A stretch of 32,506 bases of DNA from Nevskia sp. GTDB taxonomy: Bacteria; Pseudomonadota; Gammaproteobacteria; Nevskiales; Nevskiaceae. The stretch lies in the NCBI RefSeq assembly GCF_023266035.1, contig NZ_JAHFRY010000036.1:1-32506 (forward strand), in the 5' to 3' direction. This document shows positions 3,481-31,344 of the stretch, in pieces. Within the stretch, counting starts at the first letter, position 1, and each line of letters starts with the position of its first letter. A program made the translations under genes and the position numbers. Under the pieces are notes generated by a model. That model saw only the letters and a program-made list of their open reading frames with translations, was not told the DNA's origin and ran no database searches.

Positions 3481-3858
3481 ATGGCACTTTCAAATCAGGA
3501 AATCCTTGACGCGATCGCCGAAAAGTCCGTCATGGACATCGTCGAGCTGGTCAAGATGATGGAAGAGAAGTTTGGCGTCTCCGCCGCTGCCGCCGTCGCC
3601 GTTGCCGGCCCGGCTGCCGGCCCGGCTGCCGCTGCTGCAATCGAGCAGACCGAGTTCACCGTCGTGATGTCGTCGTTCGGCGAGAACAAGGTCAATGTCA
3701 TCAAGGCCGTCCGTGAAATCACCGGCCTGGGTCTGAAGGAAGCGAAGGATCTGGTCGAAGCCGTCCCGGCAACGATCAAGGACGCGATCCCGAAGGCTGA
3801 CGCCGAAGCGATCGTCAAGAAGCTGTCGGATGCGGGCGCCAAGGCTGCGATCAAGTAA
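3481..3858 (+). CDS. rplL: 50S ribosomal protein L7/L12
   Basis: L7/L12 is the multi-copy stalk protein that recruits and activates translational GTPases (EF-Tu, EF-G, IF2). The 125-residue product is near the usual length (121 in E. coli). The N-terminal dimerisation domain covers about residues 1-35. The flexible hinge (about 36-58) is made almost only of Ala, Val, Gly and Pro, and the globular domain has the factor-binding stretch [20 protein letters not shown]. The hinge DNA has an exact 12-bp tandem repeat, GCCGGCCCGGCT at 3604-3615 and 3616-3627. GAGG at 3467-3470 serves as ribosome-binding site. Confidence 0.98.
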
Positions 3859-3899
3859 GCCTTGTCGATTCGCTCAAGCAGCACGCTGTAACCGGCGAG

Positions 3900-3933
3900 G
3901 GCTGGCCGCGCAAGCGGCCGGCCTTCTGCCGTT
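3900..3933 (+). terminator. Attenuator-like hairpin between rplL and rpoB
   Basis: A 10-bp stem (3900-3909 with 3914-3923, one G-T pair) with a GCAA tetraloop is followed by TTCTGCCGTT, a poor T tract. E. coli has a partial terminator at the same place that sets the ratio of L7/L12 to beta, and this hairpin probably does the same. Confidence 0.65.
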
Positions 3934-3992
3934 GCTACAACCGTATTTGAATGCTCCGCGCGCCTGAAGCGCGCCAAGACGAGGTAACACCG

Positions 3993-8144
<4,152 letters not shown>

Positions 8145-8147
8145 GGC

Positions 8148-8191
8148 GACAGGTCACCTGTCTGAGACGTGCTGCCGAAAGGCGCCGTCTC
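8148..8191 (+). repeat. Double palindrome in the rpoB-rpoC gap
   Basis: Four bases after the rpoB stop lies the perfect palindrome GACAGGT-C-ACCTGTC (8148-8162). It is followed by a second structure in which GAGACG (8164-8169) pairs with CGTCTC (8186-8191) around an inner GCC-GAAA-GGC hairpin. There is no T tract, so it is not a terminator. An RNase processing site or mRNA stabiliser is possible. Confidence 0.6.
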
Positions 8192-8246
8192 GGACATCAG
8201 TAATCAGCCTACTAGCCTCAAGAATTGCGGTATTGCGGAGATAGAC

Positions 8247-12509
<4,263 letters not shown>

Positions 12510-21925: not shown

Positions 21926-21929
21926 CTAC

Positions 21930-22008
21930 AGTGGTCGGTGGCTAGTGACTGGTGGCTAGTCAAAAGTCTCCGCGTTTACTAATCACTAGCCACTTGTCAC
22001 TAGATACC
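21930..22008 (+). repeat. Inverted heptad-repeat element, site 1 (rplP-rpmC)
   Basis: The left side reads in 7-bp units AGTGGTC, GGTGGCT, AGTGACT, GGTGGCT (21930-21957). The right side reads ACTAATC, ACTAGCC, ACTTGTC, ACTAGAT (21978-22005). Arms 21937-21967 and 21978-22008 are 31 bases each and pair at 24 positions by Watson-Crick count around a 10-base loop. There is no T tract. The rpmC ATG is five bases after the element. Confidence 0.85.
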
Positions 22009-22013
22009 GAGTT

Positions 22014-25184: not shown

Positions 25185-25270
25185 AGTGAAGCAGTGGTCA
25201 GTGGTCGGCTCAGGCTTAGTCCTCCGGCCACCCGGCTACTCGAAGGTCACTGGAATCTGTCACTGGAAAT
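25185..25270 (+). repeat. Heptad-repeat element, site 2 (rplF-rplR)
   Basis: Two exact tandem AGTGGTC units (25193-25206) follow an AGTGAAGC (25185-25192). On the right, GTCACTGGAA and TCTGTCACTGGAA (about 25246-25267) repeat ACTGGAA twice, 13-14 bases apart, in the opposite sense. The central part (25207-25245) is C- and G-rich. The inverted pairing is looser than at site 1. The rplR ATG is six bases after the element. Confidence 0.7.
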
Positions 25271-25276
25271 CGTTTT

Positions 25277-26169: not shown

Positions 26170-26358
26170 ATGAGCGCTACCAAGCAAGTCAAAATCACGC
26201 TCGTCAAAAGCGTGTTCGGTCGTCTCCAGGCTCATCGCGCTTGCGTGCGCGGCCTCGGTCTGACCCGGATGCATTCGTCGGTCGTGGTTCCGGCGACGGC
26301 GGAAAATATGGGCATGGTCAACAAGATTGGCTTCATGCTGAAGATTGAAGAAGTCTGA
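26170..26358 (+). CDS. rpmD: 50S ribosomal protein L30
   Basis: L30 is a small 50S protein of the bacterial form. The product is 62 residues (59 in E. coli). It has KITLVKSVFGRLQAHRACVR (about residues 8-27), then GLGLTRMHSSVVVP and the closing NKIGFMLKIEEV. AAGGAATCGCC precedes the ATG. A heptad-repeat element fills the whole gap to rplO. Confidence 0.97.
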   Translation: MSATKQVKITLVKSVFGRLQAHRACVRGLGLTRMHSSVVVPATAENMGMVNKIGFMLKIEEV

Positions 26359-26359
26359 A

Positions 26360-26460
26360 ACAACAGTGGTCATTGGCCTGCGCCAGTGACCGGTCGTCTG
26401 TTTCGAATTCGCTGAACTGTTGTTACTGGCCATTGGCCACTGATCACTGGGAACTGTTGT
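26360..26460 (+). repeat. Inverted heptad-repeat element, site 3 (rpmD-rplO)
   Basis: The left units are AGTGGTC, ATTGGCC (26365-26378) and AGTGACC (26385-26391). The right units are ACTGGCC, ATTGGCC, ACTGATC, ACTGGGA (26425-26452). The ends are a perfect 8-bp inverted repeat, ACAACAGT (26360-26367) with ACTGTTGT (26453-26460). The element ends one base before the rplO start codon, so GGGA of the last unit is the only candidate Shine-Dalgarno. Confidence 0.82.
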
Positions 26461-26461
26461 C

Positions 26462-26896
26462 ATGAAACTGAATACGATCAAGCCTGCTGCTGGTGCCAAG
26501 ACGGCTCGCGTTCGCGTCGGCCGCGGTATCGGTTCCGGCATGGGCAAGACCGCTGGCCGCGGTCACAAAGGTCAGCGCGCCCGCAAGGGTGGCCGCGGCA
26601 AGATCGGCTTTGAAGGCGGTCAGATGCCGATCCAGCGTCGTCTGCCGAAGCGCGGCTTTTCTTCCGCGATCGGCAAGCTGACGGCTGAAGTGCGTCTGTC
26701 GGACATCGAGCGGATGACCGAGACCGAGATCGATCTCGGCGTGCTCAAGGCAGCTGGCGTCATTCAGTCGCAGATCCTGCAGGCGAAGCTGATCAAGTCG
26801 GGCACCTTGACCCGCAAGATCACGATCAAAGGCGTTGGCGTCACCAAGGGCGCCCGCGAAGCGATCACCGCCGCCGGCGGCAGCGTCGCAGAGTAA
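26462..26896 (+). CDS. rplO: 50S ribosomal protein L15
   Basis: L15 is a late-assembly 50S protein. The product is 144 residues, the E. coli length. The glycine- and arginine-rich N-terminal part has [20 protein letters not shown] (about residues 20-39), with [17 protein letters not shown] following. The start codon is placed one base after the heptad element, with GGGA nine bases upstream as the only ribosome-binding signal. secY follows after 30 bp. Confidence 0.98.
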
Positions 26897-31281: not shown

Positions 31282-31303
31282 AGTAATTGCAAACAACCGC
31301 GCG

Positions 31304-31331
31304 AATGGCCACCGGCCGCTAGCCACTGATA
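31304..31331 (+). repeat. Single-arm heptad-repeat element, site 4 (rpoA-rplQ)
   Basis: Four units follow one another: AATGGCC, ACCGGCC, GCTAGCC, ACTGATA. They match the right-arm type of the other three sites, but no left arm (RGTGRYY) is present. The rplQ ATG is 13 bases downstream. Confidence 0.65.
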
Positions 31332-31344
31332 ACAGAGTTAAAAC

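Follow-up and report, generated by a model that had tools for sequence, protein, structure and literature searches.

The spacer between the ribosomal-protein genes rpmD and rplO is a degenerate, worn copy of a dispersed heptad-hairpin element. Gene-border arrays of this kind are known but unexplained, and the element adds a new word and defined ends to them. The copy lies in a window of 32,506 nucleotides (the whole stretch of DNA that was analysed), which is a ribosomal-protein gene region of a Nevskia-like gammaproteobacterium according to gene names read from its open reading frames; the RplO protein is 81% identical to that of a Nevskia MAG, and its best named relatives are Nevskia MAGs at 79-81%. 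The explanation that we favour, with about an even chance of being right, is an intercistronic RNA hairpin that is copied or rewritten between loci.

The rpmD-rplO spacer

The rpmD stop codon (26356..26358, forward strand, as are all features of this spacer; ORF 26170-26358 in the ORF listing) ends one base before the element, and rplO is listed at 26462..26896. The spacer thus spans 26359-26461 and the element, at 26360-26460, lies flush between both genes. The sequence-only reading had described perfect 8-bp inverted ends with internal heptads, in a unit stopping one base short of the rplO start codon, and these features were all recovered: the left end ACAACAGT (26360..26367) has its reverse complement in the right end ACTGTTGT (26453..26460), and base 26461 is a C, followed by the rplO ATG at 26462-26464. 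Such a flush 8-bp inverted repeat, with both ends within 3 nt, arose in 2 of 20,000 dinucleotide shuffles of the 103-base spacer, and a lag-7 self-match as high as that observed (40/96) was reached in a fraction of 0.0002 of 20,000 shuffles. However, the perfect match of the ends is peculiar to this copy, since the family consensus reads GAAGCAGT at the left end and ACTGCTTC at the right end, and the orthologous left ends aligned to ACAACAGT read GCAGCAGT, ACCGCAGC and GC-GCACC in the congeners G001, G012 and G007, respectively.

Between these ends, the remaining left-arm heptads ACAGTGG TCATTGG (26363..26376; family YYAGTGG) could be read off the sequence, and period-7 analysis gave the right-arm heptads TTACTGG CCATTGG CCACTGA TCACTGG (26423..26450). 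A local hairpin, GGTCATTGG-CCTGCG-CCAGTGACC (26368..26391), was recognised by eye from the alignment, and at its position G007 and G006 have other sequences with hairpin potential; the MFE fold favours arm-to-arm pairing over this local hairpin.

A dispersed family of inverted heptad arrays

The family consensus is GAAGCAGTGG-(YYAGTGG)n-loop-(CCACTRR)n-CCACTGCTTC, with arms mostly of 33 nt and with GAAGCAGTGG/CCACTGCTTC as shared terminal inverted repeats. An alignment of 27 elements, which leaves out L082, L084, L088, L097, L114, L116 and the window copies (all kept in the placement and fold sets), gave GAAGCAGTGG-YNAGTGG-YNAGTGG-YNAGTGG-YNAGT, a loop and the inverse ending in CCACTGCTTC. The units stand in tandem, with a mode of four per arm and mostly equal numbers in the two arms of a pair, and a base other than G ends 7-32% of the YYAGTGG units, the share varying with position. 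Additional AAGC/GCTT marks frame the arms: 32 and 31 of 56 have them at the outer ends and, immediately on the loop side, 26 and 27 of 56, where shuffled loops would give about 2.9. The loops vary in length and sequence among copies.

The dispersal of this word was evident from several counts. In the genome that holds the window (G000), 44 occurrences of the pentamer pair CACTGNNCACTG compare with 3 of the reversed pattern, several of the former being a minus-strand array followed by a plus-strand array 41-76 bp further on. In the 312 kb of loci fetched from G000 and G012, a 33-nt arm template detected 129 arms, versus 1 in the reversed sequence, after the coding false positives L094, L107, L115 and L118 had been removed by eye. 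These yielded 62 inverted pairs (29 in G000, 32 in G012 and 1 in the window), where the 32 of G012 correspond to 30 right arms because in L146 and L149 one right arm belongs to two pairs, and where the template favours arms of 33 nt, so that L101 and the second copy of L105, each with one shortened arm, fall outside the set. At L146 (G012:C98, 1978-2144), the left arm is tandemly duplicated together with its frame marks. At gathering score, the Rfam matches in the window comprised only a tRNA and none for the element.

Three sister elements were found in the window: one in the rplP-rpmC spacer (21926..22011), with both arms recognisable and a fold z of -5.7; a degenerate one in the rplF-rplR spacer (25188..25272), which has the full left end GAAGCAGTGG and a shuffle-like fold (z -0.6); and the right half of one in the rpoA-rplQ spacer (31292..31339; z -0.3), whose left arm is missing from the window and found in G012 and G007. 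The discrete unit with defined ends that the sequence-only reading had proposed, to be abandoned if no other locus had these ends or heptad arrays of similar layout, was therefore borne out by the genome search, as many loci have the ends GAAGCAGTGG/CCACTGCTTC and the heptad layout. Slippage as the sole origin, which that reading had also argued against, is excluded, since inverted arms of mostly equal length and a dispersed word cannot be wholly explained by a local process.

The placement of the elements is equally regular. With gene borders taken from our own simple gene caller, the 37 elements of G000 (the four window copies included) lie at 30 codirectional, 7 convergent and no divergent junctions, and a single divergent junction was found among 59 paired elements of G000 and G012; in sampled stretches, divergent junctions made up 25/183 of the spacers 15-300 nt long in G007 and 7/78 in G001. 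Among 48 codirectional cases, the median gap to the stop codon was -1 nt and that to the start codon 2 nt, and both gaps fell within -5 to +10 nt in 26 of them, which indicates that the element takes up practically all of the spacer. Several negative stop-side gaps reflect genes reading into the first heptads. At L089, L092, L109, L121, L124, L136 and L146, the upstream gene stops at the TAG within YTAGTGG, giving a gap of -14, and at L124 (G012) codons at the gene end are lost relative to G000 (L083).

A proposed notched hairpin between cistrons

RNA folds compared with dinucleotide shuffles gave a mean z of -4.8, with 30 of 37 copies below -3 as long imperfect hairpins. The rpmD-rplO copy reached -3.9, and two of the four window copies, with z near 0, are among the seven not below -3. 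The pairing of cognate arms is nevertheless not maximised, as matches at the variable dinucleotides were fewer than in shuffled pairs both in G000 (22 versus 33.7, p 0.009) and in G012 (26 versus 37.2, p 0.010), two tests that are not independent because the genomes share many elements. The mean longest uninterrupted helix was not significantly shorter than in shuffled pairs (p 0.08 and 0.53). We read these data as a hairpin that is kept but notched by mismatched dinucleotides; as a guess, the notching could be due to the instability of long perfect palindromes.

The favoured explanation would then run as follows. Two inverted degenerate YYAGTGG arrays around a non-conserved loop would form a notched mRNA hairpin between cistrons, which would act like REP-type intercistronic hairpins, the word itself being of little importance. 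Hairpins of the REP type may protect 3' ends, terminate transcription at convergent sites and tune the expression of the next cistron. Copying between loci, by ectopic conversion or by insertion into existing hairpins, would keep the copies alike within a genome and could change the word at a site; we infer such copying from the genome-biased words described below. If only the hairpin mattered, the notching and the constant AGTGG would need an additional reason.

Presence and absence at orthologous junctions

Within the G012 loci fetched for holding elements, the junctions of 16 of the 29 G000 elements were likewise occupied by an element, the other 13 junctions falling outside these loci. In the shared elements, 82 of 800 constant positions and 58 of 256 variable dinucleotides were changed, with 7.1% change in the flanks. 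The rpmD-rplO element itself is present in G000, G001 and G012, partial in G007 and replaced by other sequence in G006, and no element was found at this junction in G014 or in the nine best named relatives. In a Nevskia soli MAG (L002), the ribosomal region contains a single inverted YYAGTGG array, at 9572-9681, and rpmD-rplO has none. At rpoB-rpoC (gene names read from sequence), G012 carries a full YYAGTGG element (L126, G012:C19, 1010-1100), and the window, at 8145-8246, shows a spacer of comparable length and unrelated sequence.

The elements are dispensable, since G001, although 97% identical to G000 over rpsE-rplO, has only 9 pattern matches versus 129. Three junctions of L105 and L083 carry short unrelated spacers in G001 (3/3) and in G015 (2/3), which has its own element copy at C157:17058. 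Comparison of the empty and filled sites showed that the whole spacer is exchanged, and neither target duplication nor a remnant of the old spacer was seen by eye at these three junctions. At the convergent site C157:15741, the element is replaced by GC-rich hairpins in G001 and G015 and by a hairpin with a T-run in G006, in our reading putative terminators.

Such presence/absence polymorphism, together with the discrete ends GAAGCAGTGG/CCACTGCTTC and the uneven amplification among congeners (129, 211 and 51 matches in G000, G012 and G002, 23 in G015 and 0-9 in the other 14), is what a non-autonomous MITE- or REPIN-like element would produce if it were moved by a transposase acting in trans, without benefit to the host and with flushness reflecting tolerated insertion. 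We regard this explanation as unlikely, because the three empty-site junctions lack a duplication or remnant, the loops are not conserved, RAYT is not linked, and different words at junctions occupied in two species, as reported below, would be unexpected of random insertion. The classical MITE considered in the sequence-only reading is accordingly not supported by the empty-site comparison: the terminal inverted repeats of such elements are present, whereas internal conservation is not. The REP-with-RAYT alternative raised there had to be rejected as well. The single Y1_Tnp (Y1-transposase) gene of G000 lies at C162:3561-3887, and a heptad scan of the 6 kb around it (C162:1000-7000) gave no matches. 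RAYT genes, found in 15 of 18 Nevskia genomes, do not track the elements: G002, which is 84% complete, has 51 pattern matches and no RAYT, and G001, G006 and G007 have RAYT with only 9, 0 and 2 matches.

Heptad words and their exchange

Outside the genus, YYAGTGG matches numbered 0-4 in 40 genomes of other genera of the same family, and the word was detected in 17 of 369 genomes of the class including G000, at least 5 matches being found in eight of the others and a single match in five. One genome of another family, G333, about 0.4 Mb in size, has 12 matches in YYAGTGG-type arrays (L234, G333:C1, 156703-156735 and others). A second word, TTNCCAG, had 60 matches in G004, 24 in G010, 14 in G007, 12 in G016, 9 each in G013 and G002 and 3 in G012, with none in G000, G001, G006 and G015 or in any control. 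Taken together, these counts indicate that the words are genome-biased and not exclusive. A word-agnostic detector with a fixed 31-nt window found arrays in 23 of 79 G000 spacers, from loci chosen for elements, all of period 7; the 126 spacers of G007 gave 5 arrays of period 7, 9 of period 9 and 1 each of periods 6 and 8. G010 gave 2/59 and G001 0/52, and no array was detected in shuffles.

Different words were observed at orthologous junctions. TTNCCAG elements of G007 occupy junctions where G000 and G012 have YYAGTGG (L106/L129, L109/L136), and a GTGAGGC element of G007 (L185, 14437) stands at the junction of the YYAGTGG element of G012 at L140 (G012:C68, 1977-2104), which from the protein ends we take to be dnaK-dnaJ. 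The 340 kb of G007 sequence contain three two-armed heptad elements, and each of them is located at a junction where G000 or G012 carries YYAGTGG. For three two-armed period-7 elements among 238 non-divergent junctions in 17 G007 stretches, the post hoc probability of this coincidence is 4.5e-7, or 3.8e-5 when period-9 elements are counted as occupied; both values are post hoc in that the junctions were noticed first and then tested, with flank identities of 74-88%. These stretches exclude L190, L195 and L199, fetched for known orthologues, and L197 and L198 cover CACTG-pattern matches. Two one-armed period-7 arrays of G007 are not at such orthologous junctions; both are without an inverse partner, one being GTGAGGC (L194:14492) and the other TTNCCAG with a GAAGCAG end (L202:3294).

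A further word, CCAGTTT, forms an array at C157:17058 in G010. These cases are countered by other states at orthologous junctions of G007. At C157:17058, G007 has no element in a spacer of 16 nt, and at the L083 site it has what we read as a decayed CCTCAC-type array. At C157:15741, G007 has an inserted stretch of 0.9 kb with a nonamer array; this insert (L190, G007:C1, near 3707-4600) lies at the element junction beside the array and, in our reading, resembles a two-gene toxin-antitoxin module. Period-nine inverted arrays of G007 (ACGCRRAGR, CACRAAGNN) were noted in L184, L188, L189, L190, L194, L196 and L200, two of nine being at divergent genes. G007 also has YYAGTGG itself at two ribosomal junctions.

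It looks new, from these comparisons of sequence, that heptad words are genome-biased and that orthologous junctions may carry different ones. A possible though tentative extension is that junction-hairpin sites and their architecture outlive the words, genome-wide rewriting by whole-spacer replacement giving each lineage its favoured word (YYAGTGG, TTNCCAG, GTGAGGC or ACGCRRAGR-like nonamers). If true, this would be a concerted-evolution system requiring some machinery that copies or templates the hairpins. Most interesting among these observations is that conserved junctions exchange whole spacers and words.

The same exchange bears on whether a protein reads AGTGG every 7 nt, the region being a multi-site DNA- or RNA-binding platform for, e.g., IHF/HU or an RNA-binding regulator. 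This is an explanation that earlier authors favoured for similar arrays in the available text of their reports (PMC2700814, PMC4679880), and it agrees with the mostly equal unit numbers per arm and with constant AGTGG positions that evolve about half as fast as the intervening dinucleotides. We consider it improbable, because YYAGTGG, TTNCCAG and GTGAGGC at orthologous junctions would require changed protein specificity, and because most elements are missing from close relatives.

Shine-Dalgarno supply and G tracts

The sequence-only reading had suggested that the last heptad supplies the Shine-Dalgarno sequence of rplO and was co-opted for translation. At rplO, GGGA (26449..26452), 9 nt before the ATG, has a moderate anti-SD match (-4.2 kcal/mol), and GGRAA occurs at the last heptad of both the rplO and the rplR spacer, with an energy of -3.3 at rplR. 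As a property of the family, however, Shine-Dalgarno supply was rejected. The family right end CCACTGCTTC carries no such sequence, and genes behind elements have a mean anti-SD energy of -1.50 (n=48) versus -3.23 (n=134) for other genes at the same loci, with 8% versus 26% at or below -4.5, in a comparison where genes at loci with two elements may count twice and also as other genes. Since the sequences behind elements are weaker, the repeats, taken as a class, are not their source, and a terminal heptad serving as ribosome-binding site by family rule is very improbable.

Locally, the repeat may have been co-opted at rplO. The start-proximal half of the rpmD-rplO spacer (26411..26461) is conserved in congeners, with 0/51 differences in G001, 2/51 in G012 and 9/47 in G007, compared with 7/51, 14/50 and 24/49 in the left half. 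The start-proximal half is also better conserved at rplR and rplQ, that is, in three of four ribosomal spacers, whereas rplP-rpmC shows the opposite. At rplO, this half has probably been retained as a leader of the gene.

A two-layer G-quadruplex built from the four GG tracts of each arm, as proposed for GGGNATC arrays, would fit the strand orientation relative to stop and start codons that is described for Xanthomonas in the available text and the single GG per unit on one strand of the other words (TTNCCAG as CTGGNAA; GTGAGGC), but is scarcely credible given that the tracts are GG and not GGG, that the unit's last G is so often replaced, and that the GG strand of TTNCCAG elements faces the other way (left arm CC), so that the orientation is not shared.

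Comparison with known systems

No relevant report on the heptad words themselves was found in the open-access literature. With REP/REPIN sequences (Bertels and Rainey 2011, PMC3116915), in the part of that report that was available, the elements share two inverted conserved ends, a spacer, a hairpin and an extragenic location; they differ in that their arms are periodic heptads with variable positions instead of invariant 16-mers, and in that RAYT linkage was not found here.

In Xanthomonas and Nostoc, heptads of GGGAATC and GGGGA(C/T)T occur with a mode of four units and in inverted pairs, according to the available text of the report (Rehm et al. 2015, PMC4692102). The present elements resemble those arrays in their tandem heptads, modal unit number, inverted pairing, intergenic position and rarity at divergent genes. 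On the same partial basis, they depart from them in having GG tracts and no GGG(G), arms mostly of 33 nt as against 2-26 units (PMC4692102), the defined ends GAAGC/GCTTC, near-flush contact with both genes, a patchy occurrence across closely related genomes and the use of different words by congeners at one junction. GGGAATC arrays were found in 1 of the 369 class genomes (G424), with an inverted layout there too, G424 being the genome in which the Xanthomonas-type layout was compared.

A 2009 study of Geobacter metallireducens (PMC2700814) describes, in its available text, class 1 elements of four octamers GTTGCTYN, class 2 of three TCTCCGTS[Y] and class 3 of five heptamers MTYCTGA, in addition to 49 elements of four GGACCGG heptamers; classes 1 and 2 form opposite-strand pairs at variable distance, and the arrays, which were not found in G. 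sulfurreducens, were interpreted as possible IHF/HU sites. The elements of Nevskia share with them short tandem words on opposite strands at variable distance and the existence of several word classes, although the words differ, YYAGTGG here versus GTTGCTYN, TCTCCGTS[Y] and MTYCTGA there. Flush stop-to-start placement and word exchange at orthologous junctions are not reported for the Geobacter arrays in the available text of PMC2700814, and word exchange is likewise unreported in the accessible portions of the open-access literature on the Xanthomonas, Geobacter and Beggiatoaceae arrays.

In Beggiatoaceae, the available text of MacGregor 2015 (PMC4679880) describes TAACTGA direct repeats near start codons, including those of ribosomal operons, with few Shine-Dalgarno sequences and a patchy distribution, for which an RNA-binding regulator was proposed. 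The likeness extends to heptads within nucleotides of start codons, rare Shine-Dalgarno sequences, ribosomal operons and patchiness; as far as that text goes, TAACTGA forms direct arrays of one word with one indirect repeat and no paired arms, unlike the elements described here. Separate reports thus describe heptad arrays at gene borders for Xanthomonas, Nostoc, Geobacter and Beggiatoaceae, and the origin and function of the arrays were left open in the available text of those reports. In Nevskia, close species have the element present, absent or built from another word at one and the same junction, which makes both origin and function testable.
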